Below, piece by piece: positions 24,084 to 32,624 of a stretch of DNA of 33,469 nucleotides. Each line of letters starts with the position of its first letter. The first letter of the stretch is position 1. Source of the stretch: Deltaproteobacteria bacterium (GTDB lineage: Bacteria > Desulfobacterota > Desulfobacteria > Desulfobacterales > Desulfosalsimonadaceae). The DNA lies in contig JAADHK010000094.1 of assembly GCA_013151835.1 (NCBI GenBank), positions 1 to 33,469 on the forward strand. Direction: 5' to 3'. The translations under genes and the position numbers were made by a program. The notes beneath the pieces are model-generated. The model saw nothing but the letters and a program-made list of their open reading frames with translations. It did not search any database and was not told the DNA's origin.

Positions 24084-24515
24084 TTACAGGGGCGATTTTG
24101 CCCGTAATGATTTTAAAATATCACGGATGGATTCAGGATACCCTTGTGCCTGGATTTTCCTGACCATACCCAGGGCCTTTTTCCCCAAAATGGGTATCTT
24201 CCAGACATAGGGGATCGTTATATGGATATCCACAAGCCTGGATTCGCCGGGCTGAAGGTTTTTATCTTTTGCCGCACGGGTATCGCTGGCCGAGATAAGC
24301 GCGTCCAGCCCGAACCTCAGGCGCAGGCCTGAACCTCCGCCCTTTTTTTTGGGACTCCTTTCAGGGCCGGGGGCGGCGCGGCTCTTAGCAGTGCCCTTAT
24401 CCCGGTAGTTGTCCAGGTTTTCAACGATCCTGAAGGCTTCCCGGACCTTTTTGCGCTGCTTTCTTTCCGATGATGCGGCATTCACGGTCTTGTCGTTATC
24501 TTTCTTCTTGCCCAT
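24084..24515 (-). CDS. Small charged protein paired with a ParA-type ATPase
   Basis: No family recognised. 143 residues from ATG 24515, which has a strong GGGAGGGG site six to eight bases upstream; longer starts lack one. Residues 1-75 are lysine/arginine/glutamate-rich and probably disordered (MGKKKDNDK, SERKQRKKVREAFRIVENLD, SPKKKGGGSG). Residues 75-143 look folded: LRFGLDALISASD, a beta-like LVDIHITIPYVWKIPILGKK and a C-terminal helix YPESIRDILKSLRA. The start lies 20 bases inside the end of the ParA gene and the hydrolase starts close after the stop, so the three are one operon. Small proteins beside orphan ParA ATPases often link the ATPase to its cargo; this role is inferred from position only. 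Confidence 0.65.
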   Translation of the reverse strand: MGKKKDNDKTVNAASSERKQRKKVREAFRIVENLDNYRDKGTAKSRAAPGPERSPKKKGGGSGLRLRFGLDALISASDTRAAKDKNLQPGESRLVDIHITIPYVWKIPILGKKALGMVRKIQAQGYPESIRDILKSLRAKSPL

Positions 24516-25230
24516 AAAGCCCCTCCCAGGAATTGATAATGGTTTGCGACAATGCCTCAACGTCATTAACAGCCTTCTCAACCTGCCGTGTCAACTTTTG
24601 GTTGTTTTCAACCATCACGGCGTATTCATTCAGGTTAAGGCCCATCCTGTTGAAATTTTCATAAATCGACCGGCCGGGATAAACCGCCCGCAGGCAGGAT
24701 ACATGAGGGGGAAGTATATCGTCAAAATAGTCATAACAACGTTGATGGTTAGCCAGCGGGTGAACAAATACGGGCAGCACGCGAAAACACCCTCTTTTTT
24801 CAGGAACGGCCCGGATAATATCCCGGATAATCGGATAGAGGTTTTCCATAAATGCCGATTCATCATTTGTCGACATGCGCATGGGAATAATAACAAGGTC
24901 GGAAAAAGCACAGGCAAAGCGTGTATGCAGCTTTCCCGTCCCCTCACCGGGTATGTCCATGACCATGAGTTCGTTATGCCCGGCGATGGCCTCGATACCC
25001 TGCTGGAAAACCTCCTTCTGGGTGCTGGAAATATGATGAAATGAAACATGGCCATTAGCACGCTCCATCTCCTCCCGCTCTTGCCACCAGTTCTTTAAGG
25101 TACCCTGAGGGTCGAGTTCGACTATTGCAATGGAAGAAAACCGGCGATCCATTGCCTTGGAAAATGCGGCGCTGACGGTCAGCGTACTCTTTCCCGTACC
25201 GCCCTTTGTCTGCACGAATCCTATGATCAT
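24496..25230 (-). CDS. ParA/MinD-family ATPase
   Basis: 244 residues. The deviant Walker A is at residues 9-16 (KGGTGKST, with the signature lysine K9 and catalytic K14). A switch-I-like VELDPQGTLKNWW is near 37-49, and a switch-II/Walker B VMDIPGEGTGKLH near 90-102. PLANHQRCYDYF and SIYENFNRMG follow later, as in ParA proteins. The fold makes ATP-dependent dimers that bind DNA or membranes non-specifically and position a cargo. No parS-like sites and no ParB (the partner is a different small protein) are seen, so plasmid or chromosome segregation is less likely than placement of some other structure. The ELDPQG sequence differs from the usual DxDPQG. Upstream is a 120-base repeat element. 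Confidence 0.88.
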   Translation of the reverse strand: MIIGFVQTKGGTGKSTLTVSAAFSKAMDRRFSSIAIVELDPQGTLKNWWQEREEMERANGHVSFHHISSTQKEVFQQGIEAIAGHNELMVMDIPGEGTGKLHTRFACAFSDLVIIPMRMSTNDESAFMENLYPIIRDIIRAVPEKRGCFRVLPVFVHPLANHQRCYDYFDDILPPHVSCLRAVYPGRSIYENFNRMGLNLNEYAVMVENNQKLTRQVEKAVNDVEALSQTIINSWEGLYGQEER

Positions 25231-25386: not shown

Positions 25387-27477
25387 TTAGCTTGCGGCCT
25401 TTTCCAGGTTAAGAACATCCTTACCGGCCCGTGCCTCCCGTGCAAGACGGGCGACCTCAGCAATATCCGCATCCGAAAAAACACCATTTTGACCGGAAAT
25501 CGCGGCGAGCTTCATGCCGTGCTTAAGGCCCATCTGGTAAATTTCCTTAACCTTCTGCCATTCGAGTTTACGACCGATGGTAAAGATTTCAAACCGGCCT
25601 TCAAGGGCAAGCACGATGGTCTCCGCAAGGCAGGCATACGCGACCTTGTTCGGGAGGCCGATATCCTTCATCTCGGGTTCGCCCGGAAGCAGAATTTCAC
25701 CCGATTCGATCACCAGGACATCCGGCCGCTTTGCCACATCCGCAGGAGAGAGGTCCAGGGGTCTCGCCACATCGGTGATAACGCACCCCGGCTTAACGGC
25801 CATTATGTCCAGAACCTTCTTGCCGGCTGCGGACGTTGCGGTTACAATTACATCCATGTCCGCAAGATACTTATCAACACGCGTGGTAATCTCGATATTG
25901 GCATCGGGCGTATCGTCCAGCATCGATTCTCTTAACGCCAGGAGCCTGGAATGGCGGATATCCACCAGGTAAATATCGGTAAAAGCCATGGCCAGCAGGC
26001 GGCAGCATACTGAACCGATTGCGCCCGTGGCCCCGACCACCATGGCCTTTGCCTTTAATTTCTTTCCCTTTTCAACCTTGATAATGCCCATGCGGCGCAC
26101 GGCGTCGGCTGCGGCCCACAGCGCACCGGACGCGCTGTAGCTGTTACCGGTGGTAATGGGGATATCGGCCAGCTTGGCCACGGTCACGCCGGCATCTCCG
26201 ACAACCTTCGTAAAAGCCCCCAGACCCATTATCTGAGCGCCGAGCCTTTTAGACATCTTCGCAGCCTGAAGAAGCCGCTTGTATGTAAACTCGGCGTTGT
26301 GGGCAAGCATCTGCTTTGGCGTACCGCCCACGGTTATGAGCCATCCCTCGACCTCGACGCCGAGCGGGGACTTTATGCCCGTAACCTTTGAATAAATAAA
26401 GGGGGGCGAATATGCTATCGCCTTTTCAACCGCATCCATAAACACCGGCGGAGCAAAACGCGCGGCAAGCTCGATGGAAGGATCCTTTTTCAACTGCTCC
26501 TGGGAAAGCGGATGGATCACAAAGGAAAACCTGTTGATCCTCTTGAACTCTCCGGAAGGATATATCACTCTCGGGTTCATCCTGTATTCGCTGATGACTT
26601 CCAGGATGTCATCCTCGGTGAGTTCATCCAGAGGTATACCAAGAACAGCGCCAATCATGGCTTCGAGCACGTTGAAACCGACAACCTGCTCCATCATCTT
26701 GGGCGTACAGTCGATAATGACATTAACGCCCCTTTCCTTTAAGAACTGGATTCTGTCTTCATAAACCGTGGATGTAATCACCGTTTTTCCGCCCAACTCC
26801 TCTATGCCGCAATCCTTGAGGTATTCGTAAAAACCGGCTGCCGGGACTACAACCACGGGATTTTTCTGGATCGCCTTTCTTATAATAAATTCATTCCACT
26901 TCCTCAGCGGCGCCGCCGAGTCCACTATCCGCCGGCTCGGCACCCATTCGAGCACATCATGCACGCCTTTGGCATAAAGGTTGAAATCACCTAATGAATT
27001 TATAAATTTGGGAATCCCGTTTTCAAATATCGGGTCCGCGAATGTAAGGTTATCGGTGTACTCATTCAAGACCGAGGCAATATTGTAACAAAGCAATCCG
27101 GAGAGGAATAATACCTTATTATAATCAAAATAATTATTACCGTACATAAACTGGATGTGGCGAATAGCCCATTCAAACGACACCCGCCTCAATTTATGCC
27201 CGGTCGTGACCGGAGAGTCGACCTGGGCCCGGAGATTTTTTATTCTCTTCTCCTGTGCCTGGAGTTCACGGCTTGATCCGATTCCATATCTGAAATTCAC
27301 ACCCCCCAGCCCTATGGCATCGGCCTTGTTCTCCCAGTCCTTCAATATCTCCACCGCGACATCCGGGTCGCCGTCCGTGCCCATACGGCGGACATTAAAT
27401 TTGTGCCCCAGAAACTCCGTTTCAAATTCATAGTCATAATCACTCGATCCCAGACTGACGCTCACGATCTGTTTCAC
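25387..27477 (-). CDS. Acyl-ACP reductase-like (COG5322) protein with large extra N-terminal domain
   Basis: 696 residues. The C-terminal half (about 390-670) matches the order of motifs in cyanobacterial long-chain acyl-ACP reductase (AAR): LGAFTKVVGDAGVTVA, ITTGNSYSASGALWAA, the NADP-binding GATGAIG at 482-488, VKPGCVITDVARPLDLS, and VAYACLAETIVLALEG with Cys616 at the place of the cysteine that carries the acyl thioester in AAR. AAR is only about 340 residues, so residues 1 to ~330 are an additional domain I do not recognise (GLGGVNFRYGIGSS, LIDCTPKMMEQVVGF-like, YPSGEFKRINRFSF). Reduction of an acyl thioester to an aldehyde is inferred, not shown; related predicted amino-acid dehydrogenases exist. 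A ferredoxin lies 25 bases upstream in the same direction. Confidence 0.75.
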   Translation of the reverse strand: MKQIVSVSLGSSDYDYEFETEFLGHKFNVRRMGTDGDPDVAVEILKDWENKADAIGLGGVNFRYGIGSSRELQAQEKRIKNLRAQVDSPVTTGHKLRRVSFEWAIRHIQFMYGNNYFDYNKVLFLSGLLCYNIASVLNEYTDNLTFADPIFENGIPKFINSLGDFNLYAKGVHDVLEWVPSRRIVDSAAPLRKWNEFIIRKAIQKNPVVVVPAAGFYEYLKDCGIEELGGKTVITSTVYEDRIQFLKERGVNVIIDCTPKMMEQVVGFNVLEAMIGAVLGIPLDELTEDDILEVISEYRMNPRVIYPSGEFKRINRFSFVIHPLSQEQLKKDPSIELAARFAPPVFMDAVEKAIAYSPPFIYSKVTGIKSPLGVEVEGWLITVGGTPKQMLAHNAEFTYKRLLQAAKMSKRLGAQIMGLGAFTKVVGDAGVTVAKLADIPITTGNSYSASGALWAAADAVRRMGIIKVEKGKKLKAKAMVVGATGAIGSVCCRLLAMAFTDIYLVDIRHSRLLALRESMLDDTPDANIEITTRVDKYLADMDVIVTATSAAGKKVLDIMAVKPGCVITDVARPLDLSPADVAKRPDVLVIESGEILLPGEPEMKDIGLPNKVAYACLAETIVLALEGRFEIFTIGRKLEWQKVKEIYQMGLKHGMKLAAISGQNGVFSDADIAEVARLAREARAGKDVLNLEKAAS

Positions 27478-27502
27478 AGCCTAATCCTCCTTTATCCTTA
27501 TG

Positions 27503-27760
27503 TTAATTCGAATTCTTTAAACCATCATTATAAATAGCGCATGCAGGACAAATATCCATGACCTCCAGGCACAAAGCCTCTTCCTGCTTGTCGGCAGGTT
27601 GCTTTGATACATAACAATGCCCGAAATAAAGGCCCTCATCAAGATTTTCCACGAAATTCTCCGGCGCGATTTCAGCACAAAGATTACAGCCGATACAGAC
27701 ACTGGTCACATAATAACGGCCTTGTACGTTTTTTTCCAATTTTTGATTCACATCCGCCAT
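27503..27760 (-). CDS. 4Fe-4S ferredoxin
   Basis: 85 residues from ATG 27760. It has a single-cluster layout: CIGCNLCAEIAPENF (three cysteines in CxxCxxC) and a distant CPACAIYND with the fourth cysteine and proline before it. The extra cysteines in HCYV and CLEV lie between. Such mono-cluster ferredoxins are low-potential one-electron carriers. A TTG at 27781 is in frame, but AAAAGG six bases before the ATG at 27760 decides the start. It is 25 bases upstream of the AAR-like gene and reads in the same direction, so it may supply electrons to that enzyme or its product pathway. Confidence 0.88.
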   Translation of the reverse strand: MADVNQKLEKNVQGRYYVTSVCIGCNLCAEIAPENFVENLDEGLYFGHCYVSKQPADKQEEALCLEVMDICPACAIYNDGLKNSN

Positions 27761-27871: not shown

Positions 27872-29377
27872 CTACGCGCAGCTTTGCTTTATGGCATGCA
27901 GCCACCCATCATAGAGGCGTTTTCTATCGTCTTCGGCCATTCCAGGATTCCACGTCTTGTCGATGGACCAATGGGACGAGAGTTCGGATTCGTCCTCCCA
28001 GTAATCCACGGCAAGCCCGGCGGCATAGGCGGCGCCCAGAACGGAGGTCTCCTTGTTTTTCGGCCGGATCACCGGGAGATCGAGGATGTCCGACTGAAAC
28101 TGCATGAGAAGTTCATTCTTCGTCATCCCGCCGTCCACCTTCAGTGACTTAAGGCTTATGCCGGAGTCCTTTTCCATGGCCTCGAATATCTCCCGCGCCT
28201 GGTATGCGGATGCCTCGAGAACCGCGCGTGCAAAATGGCCTTTATTGATGTAATGGGTCAGCCCGGTAATTATTCCCCTTGCATGGCTTATCCAATGTGG
28301 CGCGAAAAGCCCTGAAAAAGCAGGCACAAAATAAAGACCACCGTTGTCTTCAACGCTTTTTGCCAGGGTTTCAATCTCATCTACGGATGAAATCATGAAA
28401 ATATTGTCACGAAACCACTGGACCAGTGAACCGGCGATTGCGATGGATCCTTCAAGGGCGTACACGGGGTCCTGTTTTCCGATCCTGTAACCGACCGTGG
28501 TTAAAAGACCAAACCGGGACTGGACGGGTTTTGCCCCGGTGTTTAAAAGCATGAAACAACCGGTGCCATAGGTATTCTTGGCCTCGCCCGGCGTGAAACA
28601 GGTCTGGCCGAAAAGCGCGGCCTGCTGGTCCCCCAGATCCCCTGAAACAGGCACCTTTGCCTTGAACACACCATTTTCGGAAGTATACCCGTATATCTCG
28701 CTGGATGAACGAATGGCCGGCAGCATGGACTTACAAATCCCCATGCGGTCCAACATCTGCTCATCCCAGACCAGGGTATTGATATTCATGAGAAGGGTCC
28801 GGCTCGCATTTGTCACGTCAGTCACATGGACCCCGCCGTTCGGGCCGCCCGTAAGCCACCAGATCAGCCAGGTGTCCATGTTGCCGAATATGGCCTCCTT
28901 CGCCTCAACCGCCGCACGAACCCCTTCGACGTTATCCAGTATCCACCTGATCTTGGGGCCTGAAAAATATGTGGCAAGGGGAAGGCCCACACGCTCACGA
29001 AAGCAATTCATGTCGTTGTTTACCGCAAGGTTACGGCAGAGTTCGTCCGTCCGGGTATCCTGCCACACGATTGCATTGTAATATGGTCGGCCGGTTTTAC
29101 GGTTCCACACGACCGTGGTTTCCCGCTGATTGGTGATGCCGATGGCGGCAAGGAGACCGGCGGATATCCCGGCCTTTTCCATGCCGGCGGCAATCACCTC
29201 AAAGGTGCGGTCCCGTATTTCCATGGGATCATGTTCAACCCAGCCGGGCCTTGGAAAAATCTGCCGGTGCTCAAGCTGGTGCATGGCCACCATCTTGGCA
29301 TTATGGTTGAAGATAAAAAAACGTGTGCTGGTCGTACCCTGGTCAATTGCGCCGACATACCGATTTTCAGTGTCCAT
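27872..29377 (-). CDS. glpK: Glycerol kinase
   Basis: 501 residues, FGGY kinase family. Signatures: [14 protein letters not shown] at the N-terminal phosphate-binding loop, [29 protein letters not shown] with the glycerol-contacting residues, [14 protein letters not shown], and the C-terminal FGGY-type [19 protein letters not shown]. It phosphorylates glycerol to sn-glycerol-3-phosphate in the cytoplasm. Length equals the usual ~500. The ATG is preceded by GCGGGGGAC. Neither glycerol facilitator nor glycerol-3-phosphate dehydrogenase genes lie next to it, so it stands as a single gene here. Confidence 0.97.
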
Positions 29378-29738: not shown

Positions 29739-31625
29739 ATGTTTACCGCAAACATTGTCATAAACAGGGGCGAAATGAACGATAACAGCGCAGAGGCCAG
29801 GAAAATAAAAACACAGTCGCCGTCGCGGGAAAACAACAGCGCCCGCTTTTCAGGCCTGTTGCACCGGGTTTCGCCCCGGCGTGTCAAAGTGCCGCATCCC
29901 GACTTGAGAACCCTTACGAATATATACAACCGGGGCCGGATGGTGCGTAAAAACGCCGTCCGATTCATGTTAAACGACCTGATCGCAAAATTTATCAACG
30001 TAAGCTATAATTCTTACAGCAGGTTTTACGAAGGACAGCTCCGCATCGGTCTTCCCGTGTCAAAGGAACTTATCCAGAGCCGCGAGGAAATCCGTTCCAT
30101 TGCCGCAGGCAAGCTTGCACTGACGCTTTACCATATTTTTCTCGGCATAACCGGCATCCGGATTCCAAGGCATAAAATCAAAAACCTGTTGCTCGCCGAG
30201 CTGGAGGCCGGAACCATACGGCTGACGGAAAATGTTATTATCTTAAACAAAAAACAGCTCAAGGAGATGTCCTTAAGCCGCATGAAAATCCCGGCTTATT
30301 TCTATTCGGGGATATATGAGGAGGCGACGCGCAGGAGGATATTAAAAGAAACCCTGAAACAAAGCCGCGTACCGGCATATTTTGACAGCGAAATAGAAGA
30401 AAGCATTCAAAACGGTCGCGGAGATTATGAAACCGTATATTATCAGGACTATACTGAAGAAGGCAAGGACATCAAGTTCCGGAGGCTTGTGAGCATAGAG
30501 GATGTCACCGCCGGAGATAACCGGCCGTCGGTCATCATGCTCCCGGGTTTTGCCAATAACAGCAATTGCTTTGATCTTTCCAACCAACAGTCGTTTGCAA
30601 AGGACCTGGCCGATAACGGATGCTGGACATACCTTTTCGACCCGCGCGGCATGGGAATCAACAAGGGAAAATTCGATCCCATGTATACGGTCGATACATT
30701 AATCGATTATGACCTGCCCACGGTCCTCCACTTTATTTTCCAGCGGAGCGGTCATAAACCGTCCATCCTCATGGGCCATAGCATGGGCGGCATTATAGCG
30801 GAAAACATGGTTTTGACCTGGAATCTGCGCCGGCATCTGAACAGCCTTACCTCTCTTACCCCGGAACAGAAGGCCCATTTGAACCGAAAGCTCCCCAGCT
30901 CAGCCAAGGCCGACAAATATCTTAAGGAGGTCAGGGGCATAATAACCTTTGGGGCTCCCAAATTTTTTAAAAAACTTTCCCATGCCTTTTTCCCGGCTGT
31001 CCTCTGGCTCAACCACCTGTCCCGGATGCTCAGGCTTCGCCAGGTCCCGGTCAAGGATTCCCTGGAATTTATCATGCAGTTTCCGATCGTAAGCGACCTG
31101 ATCCACTATCTGGCTTTCAGTAATGTCGCGGACCTGAATGTTTTGATGTGCCCTGAAAACCAGAAATTTTCAAAGGAATTCACAAATTTATACATTGAGA
31201 GAGTGATTGAATCGGTCCCCCTGGGGCTTGGTTTCCAGTTTTTAAAGGCAATATATAATGGTGAGGGTTTCAAGCGGATGGACGAAACACGGTTAAACTA
31301 CACGGCCCATGTCGATTGTTTCCCGGAGGATATACCTGTTTTCCATTTCTGGGGTTCCAAGGACCCGCTGGCCCCTGCCGACAACCTTAATTTCAGCAAG
31401 CACTACCCACACCGGGTAAAACGGGTGTACCACATTGAAAACGGGCATGATGCGGAACGTATAAACATAACCGATGAACGCAGCCAGCTCGTTGATATCG
31501 TTGTTGAAGGGGCAAATCATCTTGACCTGCTCTACGGCAGGCTGGCCGAGGAAATTGTCAAACCCATGACCAGTCGGATAATTGAAAAAATATGGGGAGA
31601 CTGGTCTTATAACTCCGGGGAATAG
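29739..31625 (+). CDS. Alpha/beta hydrolase, acid-lipase-like
   Basis: 628 residues. The C-terminal ~370 form an alpha/beta-hydrolase: an oxyanion-loop strand VIMLPGFANNSN, YLFDPRGMGINKGKF, the nucleophile elbow GHSMGG with Ser348, and likely Asp542 (FWGSKDPLAPADN) and His594 (VEGANHLDLLYG) completing the triad. The DPRGMG and NHLDLLYG motifs are like those of acid-lipase-type hydrolases (LNFRGRG, NHLDFIWG). The first ~230 residues are an added basic, helical region I do not recognise. No signal peptide is present, so it is probably cytosolic or membrane-associated. Two starts are possible, ATG 29739 (after a G-run) and ATG 29775 (after AGGGGC). The DUF2804 gene begins three bases after the stop. 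Substrate unknown; a lipid ester is the natural guess. Confidence 0.78.
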   Translation: MFTANIVINRGEMNDNSAEARKIKTQSPSRENNSARFSGLLHRVSPRRVKVPHPDLRTLTNIYNRGRMVRKNAVRFMLNDLIAKFINVSYNSYSRFYEGQLRIGLPVSKELIQSREEIRSIAAGKLALTLYHIFLGITGIRIPRHKIKNLLLAELEAGTIRLTENVIILNKKQLKEMSLSRMKIPAYFYSGIYEEATRRRILKETLKQSRVPAYFDSEIEESIQNGRGDYETVYYQDYTEEGKDIKFRRLVSIEDVTAGDNRPSVIMLPGFANNSNCFDLSNQQSFAKDLADNGCWTYLFDPRGMGINKGKFDPMYTVDTLIDYDLPTVLHFIFQRSGHKPSILMGHSMGGIIAENMVLTWNLRRHLNSLTSLTPEQKAHLNRKLPSSAKADKYLKEVRGIITFGAPKFFKKLSHAFFPAVLWLNHLSRMLRLRQVPVKDSLEFIMQFPIVSDLIHYLAFSNVADLNVLMCPENQKFSKEFTNLYIERVIESVPLGLGFQFLKAIYNGEGFKRMDETRLNYTAHVDCFPEDIPVFHFWGSKDPLAPADNLNFSKHYPHRVKRVYHIENGHDAERINITDERSQLVDIVVEGANHLDLLYGRLAEEIVKPMTSRIIEKIWGDWSYNSGE

Positions 31626-31628
31626 AAA

Positions 31629-32624
31629 ATGGAACATATAATTTCCGGAAACGGCCGTATCCGGTTTGGCCGCTTTGACACACCGGTTGCTCCCATCGAC
31701 ATACGGCCATATTCCCTGAAGACGGCCATGGGAAAAAACCGGTCGAATTTCATCAAGAAACTTTCGTTCAAACAATTCGTCTTTATAGGCATCATAGGGC
31801 CGGACATCATTTTCGGCTCGGCCGTGGTAAACCTCAAATACATCACAAGCGGTTTTGTTTACGCATACGACCGCAGCACCCGCGCCCTTTACGACATCGA
31901 AAAGACAGGGCTCCCTTTGCCGGGAAAATGCCGCATATCAATAGACCCTGAAAACCCATCGGCACGGATTTCCACACGCGGCCTTCAAATTGAAATCAAT
32001 AAAGACCGGCTGCAGGCCGAATCCGGCGATGTATCAATAGACGTCCGGCTTGACCGATCAAAAACGACCCCTTTGCGACTCTGTTCAAGGGCCGGATACA
32101 CAGGATGGGTTTATACCCAGAAAACGACTCCTATCCCGGTTACCGGGGTAATAAAAATACCGGGAAAGGAAATAAAACTCGCCTTCGACAAACACATGGC
32201 CCTGATGGACTGGACTGCGGGATTCATGCGGCGTGAAACCTTCTGGAACTGGGCCGCATCGGCCGCTGTTTTAAACGACGGCCGACGCTTTGGCCTGAAC
32301 CTGTCCGCCGGGGTGAACGAAACCGGTTTTACCGAAAACGCATTCTGGGTTGATGAAAAAATGACCAAGATAGATACGATCGAATTCCGTTTCGACCCGG
32401 ACGACCTTTTAGCGCCCTGGCATATCCGGTCCTCGGACGCTCATGCCGACCTCACCTTCCAACCGGATTGTCAGCGGAATCAGCAAATAAACGCCGGCAT
32501 CATCGCCAGCCGATTCACCCAGATGATCGGCCGGTTTTCAGGTACGCTTAAAACCGATGCCGGAGAAACGATCACAATCAAAGACATCCCCGGCTGGGCC
32601 GAAGACCATTTCGCCCGCTGGTAA
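31629..32624 (+). CDS. DUF2804 family protein
   Basis: 331 residues matching the DUF2804 pattern: LMDWTAGFMRRETFWNWA, GLNLSAGVNETGFTENAFWV, EFRFDPDDLLAPWHIRS, SDAHADLTFQPDCQR, SRFTQMIGRFSGTLKTDAGE and the C-terminal GWAEDHFARW. The conserved aromatic and acidic pairs are all present. The family is uncharacterised; its repeated beta pattern recalls lipocalin-like hydrolase/hydratase folds such as AttH/CrtC, which is only a suggestion. There is no signal peptide. It lies three bases after the hydrolase gene, so the two are probably co-translated and may act on the same lipid. Confidence 0.82.
   Translation: MEHIISGNGRIRFGRFDTPVAPIDIRPYSLKTAMGKNRSNFIKKLSFKQFVFIGIIGPDIIFGSAVVNLKYITSGFVYAYDRSTRALYDIEKTGLPLPGKCRISIDPENPSARISTRGLQIEINKDRLQAESGDVSIDVRLDRSKTTPLRLCSRAGYTGWVYTQKTTPIPVTGVIKIPGKEIKLAFDKHMALMDWTAGFMRRETFWNWAASAAVLNDGRRFGLNLSAGVNETGFTENAFWVDEKMTKIDTIEFRFDPDDLLAPWHIRSSDAHADLTFQPDCQRNQQINAGIIASRFTQMIGRFSGTLKTDAGETITIKDIPGWAEDHFARW

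Follow-up and report, generated by a model that had tools for sequence, protein, structure and literature searches.

The locus analyzed here raises the question of what an acyl-ACP reductase (AAR)-type thioester reductase, fused to a second domain and accompanied by its own ferredoxin, does in an anaerobe. This description of the protein, put forward in the original prediction, is supported by the present analysis of the window (the whole 33,469-nucleotide stretch of DNA) and its relatives. Computation established the fold, the conservation of the cysteine and nucleotide loop, the gene linkage, and the co-occurrence described below; the activity, substrate, direction, and product we infer, and the protein is likely to reduce fatty acyl thioesters with NAD(P)H in support of wax-ester synthesis.

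The gene for the predicted two-module acyl (thioester) reductase of 696 aa (25387..27477, minus strand), identified by profile, PDB, and structure-model matches, starts with GTG, 8 nt downstream of an AGGAGG ribosome-binding site (27486-27491). The ferredoxin gene (27503..27760, minus strand) runs from an ATG at 27760 to a stop at 27503, ending 25 bp upstream of the reductase reading frame, and encodes an 85-aa protein with a single [4Fe-4S] cluster (Fer4_13, 6.8e-12), confirming the mono-cluster ferredoxin that had been noted directly upstream. The next upstream gene, kept in the closest relatives, encodes glycerol kinase GlpK (27872..29377, minus strand), and beyond it lies an alpha/beta hydrolase, possibly a lipid hydrolase (29739..31625, plus strand), of the same protein cluster as the hydrolase found after the tandem reductases of other Desulfobacterales. 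A DUF2804 protein is encoded at 31629-32624, immediately downstream of this hydrolase. Downstream of the reductase are a ParA-like ATPase (24496..25230, minus strand), conserved in the closest relatives, and its small conserved partner protein (24084..24581, minus strand), whose true start is probably inside the ORF.

The C-terminal half of the protein constitutes the catalytic AAR module (residues 316-696; 25390..26532, minus strand), with the AAR hallmarks TTGNSYSASG, GATGAIG at residues 482-488, and Cys616 all located where they had been predicted. Residues 316-683 match the profiles of PigE (NF053554; 1e-51, 176.3 bits, cut-off 850) and AAR (TIGR04058; 1.8e-18, 66.9 bits, curated cut-off 449.7 bits), both below the curated cut-offs; the PigE match covers the reductase part only and does not include the aminotransferase domain. 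Among PDB sequences, the C-half matched PigE 4PPM (2.2e-23) and AAR 6JZQ (4.6e-13). In an AlphaFold2 model of the full protein built from 60 family members (pLDDT 85.1, pTM 0.84), residues 316-674 superpose on AAR 6JZQ with a VIA Z score of 30.6 (rmsd 4.0, 327 residues aligned, 25% identity), and Foldseek matched the module to AAR 6JZZ with an E value of 1.2e-19. The GATGAIG loop (26014..26034, minus strand), the NAD(P)H loop, aligns with 162-GATGDIG-168 of AAR and is near-invariant across the family, apart from a T/S exchange. Cys616, in YACLAETI (25630..25632, minus strand), aligns with AAR Cys294 and PigE Cys296, the residues to which the acyl group is bound prior to its reduction by hydride (PMC7089970; PMC8341465).

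The N-terminal half (residues 1-312; 26542..27477, minus strand) had been described as an unrecognized new domain. In sequence searches, residues 1-320 indeed yielded no convincing Pfam or PHROG family and no PDB match; the predicted fold, however, is recognizable and closest to AAR itself. When the N-domain was modeled alone with AlphaFold2 (pLDDT 87.5), its nine best VIA matches (Z 12.8 to 14.1) were without exception to AAR or to the AAR-like domain of carmabin synthetase, led by 6JZQ (Z 14.1, rmsd 4.7, 253 residues aligned, 11% identity), and the best non-AAR fold was malic enzyme (Z 10.6). A trimmed comparison of the N- and C-half profiles, which aligns SPVTTGHKLRRVSFEW of the N-half with IPITTGNSYSASGALW of the C-half, scored 29.9. 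The highest of 20 shuffles reached 23.1 and the reversed profile 21.1; the match is suggestive but not significant by itself. By eye, the N-half has SGxxxYxIA in place of the GATGAIG of the C-half, with no full GxxGxxG, and it has no Cys at the catalytic place, no conserved Cys elsewhere, and no flavin motif. The N-half is therefore best explained, from its modeled fold and with modest-to-weak sequence support, as a second, degenerate AAR-like module, and its role is probably structural, docking, or regulatory. One related genus encodes the N-module on its own, as proteins of 316-333 aa (L122:6503-7459, L123:2125-3126, and L126:1947-2897); these genes adjoin that for cysteinyl-tRNA synthetase and a pair of small conserved genes.

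At least 494 related stretches were recovered when 84,980 species genomes were scanned; nearly all of the best 80 belong to Desulfobacterales or to deltaproteobacterial MAGs, and one belongs to an Acidobacteria MAG. The fusion architecture is kept across hundreds of relatives and, since Cys616 and the upstream ferredoxin are likewise kept in many of them, this arrangement reflects more than chance. Three types are distinguished by the residue at position 616: Cys (77 members, including the window), Gly (25), and Ser (6), with a single change on the tree being enough for each. The cysteine is kept in all 77 members of its own clade and lost in two paralogous clades, such that the predicted conservation of Cys616 holds only within the former. 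Genes of the Gly type immediately follow a Cys-type gene as its tandem partner, and neither the Gly nor the Ser type is probably a reductase by the AAR mechanism. In-frame stops at the 3′ ends of the tandem partners look like the alignment overrunning a natural stop. One catalytic-type copy, from an Olavius endosymbiont (L068:7001-9007, identical to L019), is missing 13 residues right after ACLAE, either through a true deletion or an assembly error. In one relative, a single-module AAR-like gene (386 aa; L124:4603-7798) adjoins a likely acyl-carrier protein and a probable AMP-ligase, as part of a separate biosynthetic cluster. In a phylum-wide sample of 297 genomes, the full two-module protein was found only in the window genome and one other, and single-module relatives were found in six.

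Across relatives, the conserved neighbors of the reductase include wax-ester synthase (WS/DGAT), an Fe-alcohol dehydrogenase (Fe-ADH)-SCP2 fusion, phasins, PhaR, and patatin, as well as an alpha/beta hydrolase, a UbiB-type kinase, and an acyl-CoA ligase. For tandem loci of at least 9 kb, 24 of 25 carry at least one of WS/DGAT, Fe-ADH-SCP2, and phasin/PhaR (21 of 25 carry WS/DGAT), and 9 of 30 single Cys-type loci likewise carry one or more of these. The window clade has a setting of its own, consisting of glycerol kinase, ferredoxin, reductase, ParA-like ATPase, small protein, and metallo-hydrolase, and the alpha/beta hydrolase is divergently oriented. Both settings are united in a single stretch of a genome from the same family (L125), in the order ligase, two WS/DGAT, phasin, PhaR, Fe-ADH-SCP2, ferredoxin, reductase, ParA, small protein, ligase. 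The ParA-like ATPase and small protein adjoin the reductase or a lipid hydrolase in the window (24084-25230), in L125 (14423-15527), and in L039 and L055. By analogy, this pair could serve in positioning lipid granules; ParA-type systems position other cargo.

The association with WS/DGAT extends to gene content. When the class was sampled at a completeness of 90% or more (146 genomes), 32 genomes carried the fusion (E <= 1e-30) and 32 carried WS/DGAT (above the Pfam cut-off); the two sets were identical, with no discordant genome. By random placement, identical sets would arise with a chance of ~10^-32, although the true figure is larger and the 32 co-occurrences are not independent events, because related sequences share ancestry. 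Four families (f1, f11, f25, and f29) each contain both-gene and neither-gene genomes and are always concordant. Of 39 sampled relatives, 16 carry both genes, and only two are discordant, at a completeness of 60% and 77%. Presence in exactly the sampled genomes that bear WS/DGAT suggests that the doubled reductase is probably the missing fatty-alcohol-forming enzyme (via aldehydes) for wax storage. Other candidates for a class-wide reductase were discarded: FcrA/HMGR is present in 11 of 146 genomes and just 5 of the 32 with WS/DGAT, a PF07993 thioester-reductase-like SDR (L113) in 10 of 146, all from the window's own family, and Fe-ADH homologs (86 of 146) are too widespread to discriminate by themselves.

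In the window's own genome, the reductase is not beside WS/DGAT, which is present as a single gene on a different contig (C96), has HHCIADG as its HHxxxDG motif, and adjoins PhaR, phasin, and patatin. An Fe-ADH-SCP2-like gene is located on contig C77, and the one PF07993 SDR in the genome is a possible second source of alcohol in this family. HMGR/FcrA (HMG-CoA_red, PF00368) was found neither in the genome nor among the Pfam hits of the 696-aa protein. The genome has three copies of the reductase family, the third of which (L003; L120:8139-10205, contig C134) is of the Ser type (YGSLAEA); with one of three paralogs altered in this manner, their roles may have diverged. A patatin-like gene lies upstream of the Ser-type copy.

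In the proposed pathway, an acyl group from acyl-CoA or acyl-ACP would be taken by Cys616 as a thioester, and a long-chain aldehyde would be released by hydride transfer from NAD(P)H in the GATGAIG loop. Conversion of this aldehyde to a fatty alcohol would fall to an alcohol dehydrogenase (the Fe-ADH-SCP2 fusion in many relatives), and the alcohol is what WS/DGAT would esterify to a wax ester for storage in phasin-coated granules, with the N-half acting as a degenerate second AAR-like module and the ferredoxin as a linked partner. Triacylglycerol is the other possible product of WS/DGAT and needs no alcohol, which counts against the wax-ester reading.

The choice of electron donor bears on how the ferredoxin is to be understood. 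A ferredoxin gene immediately precedes 50 of the 76 Cys-type relatives and none of the 31 Gly or Ser types, giving the gene order ferredoxin, catalytic subunit, dead subunit. From this linkage, a ferredoxin-dependent acyl reductase could be imagined, in which the upstream ferredoxin supplies electrons via the N-domain. This reading is very unlikely, given that the complete nucleotide loop argues against replacement of NAD(P)H, that the N-domain resembles a degenerate AAR module with neither conserved Cys nor flavin motif, and that no ferredoxin was found in the 700 nt preceding 26 of the 76 Cys-type relatives, a few of which lie at contig ends. In AAR, the NADPH phosphate is contacted by Arg189, Arg193, and Arg314 (PMC7089970), which correspond in the PDB alignment to Ile507, Arg511, and Arg636 of the window protein. 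The presence of two of these three arginines, together with the intact loop, further disfavors the original proposal that ferredoxin is used instead of NADPH. Residues 506-508 are GRN in most other Cys-type members (compare ARN in AAR) and D-I/V-R in the window clade; this sequence pattern suggests NADPH as the cofactor for most of the family and, because Asp506 precedes Ile507, a preference for NADH in the window copy. A wax-ester reductase complex, in which the Cys-type two-module subunit, a dead Gly-type two-module subunit, and the dedicated ferredoxin would together carry out low-potential acyl reduction, is conceivable but improbable; the same doubt applies to its assembly from up to four AAR-like modules with a catalytic Cys in just one.

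Alternatives that accept the chemistry and redirect its use can be judged by the same genomic setting. The hydrocarbon formation raised in the original prediction lost ground, since no ADO gene was noticed within the window and both the linkage to WS/DGAT and the co-occurrence in all 32 genomes point to a neutral lipid (wax ester) instead. The enzyme might also run in reverse, as an acylating aldehyde dehydrogenase converting long-chain aldehydes derived from stored wax, alcohols, or alkanes to acyl-CoA. In favor of this are the reversibility of the reaction, the linked genes for hydrolase, patatin, acyl-CoA ligase, and ADH, and the oxidation of long-chain substrates by many Desulfobacterales, but the strict linkage with a wax-forming WS/DGAT and granule proteins, along with the operation of the AAR and PigE homologs as reductases, renders this direction decidedly unlikely. 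Nor is it at all probable that the fatty alcohols or aldehydes go into alkyl-ether lipids of the membrane instead of wax esters. Sulfate reducers are known to contain alkylglycerol ether lipids (PMC11150832; PMC5552659), and ether lipids can be served by FarA-type reductases (PMC11948995), yet the perfect co-occurrence with WS/DGAT and the phasin linkage favor storage, and no ether-lipid gene was recognized in the general survey of the neighbors.

The two-module reductases form a family common in Desulfobacterales, whose setting is that of neutral-lipid storage. According to a 2023 survey, synthesis or accumulation of wax esters or triacylglycerol was unreported in Deltaproteobacteria, though WS/DGAT genes occur there (PMC10351704), and a search of the open-access literature on wax esters in sulfate reducers returned no paper on this protein. 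If correct, the proposed function would fill a missing step and make the gene a marker by which oil storage could be tested for in the main marine-sediment sulfate reducers. The family also represents a case of an enzyme retaining degenerate copies of itself, both fused and in tandem.

The known reductases for wax esters, namely FarA, AcrB, Acr1, and FcrA (PMC11948995), are not of the AAR type. They share with the window protein the proposed pathway step, supply of fatty aldehyde or alcohol to WS/DGAT, but belong to different protein families, FcrA being HMGR-like and FarA and AcrB being matched by SDR/NAD_binding_4-type profiles. The route proposed here would be distinct from all four and, if true, would add a fifth reductase type. 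With cyanobacterial AAR (TIGR04058; 6JZQ, 6JZU), the protein shares the fold of residues 316-674, the GATGxIG loop, the catalytic Cys, and the equivalents of Arg193 and Arg314. Unlike AAR, a single module of about 340 aa, it comprises two modules in 696 aa, scores far below the TIGR04058 cut-off, has Ile507 preceded by Asp506 at the position of Arg189, and belongs to a family whose genomic partners are WS/DGAT and ferredoxin instead of ADO. The AAR-like domain of carmabin synthetase, termed "TAD" (9E4S, 9E4U), has the same fold (Z 29.4), binds NADH, and has a reactive Cys, but is the terminal domain of an assembly line. The best sequence match is the thioester-reductase domain of PigE/TamH (NF053554; 4PPM), likewise an AAR-like module with the same Cys within a larger fusion; there, the module is fused to an aminotransferase and the protein yields an amine, whereas in the window protein the partner is a degenerate AAR-like module.
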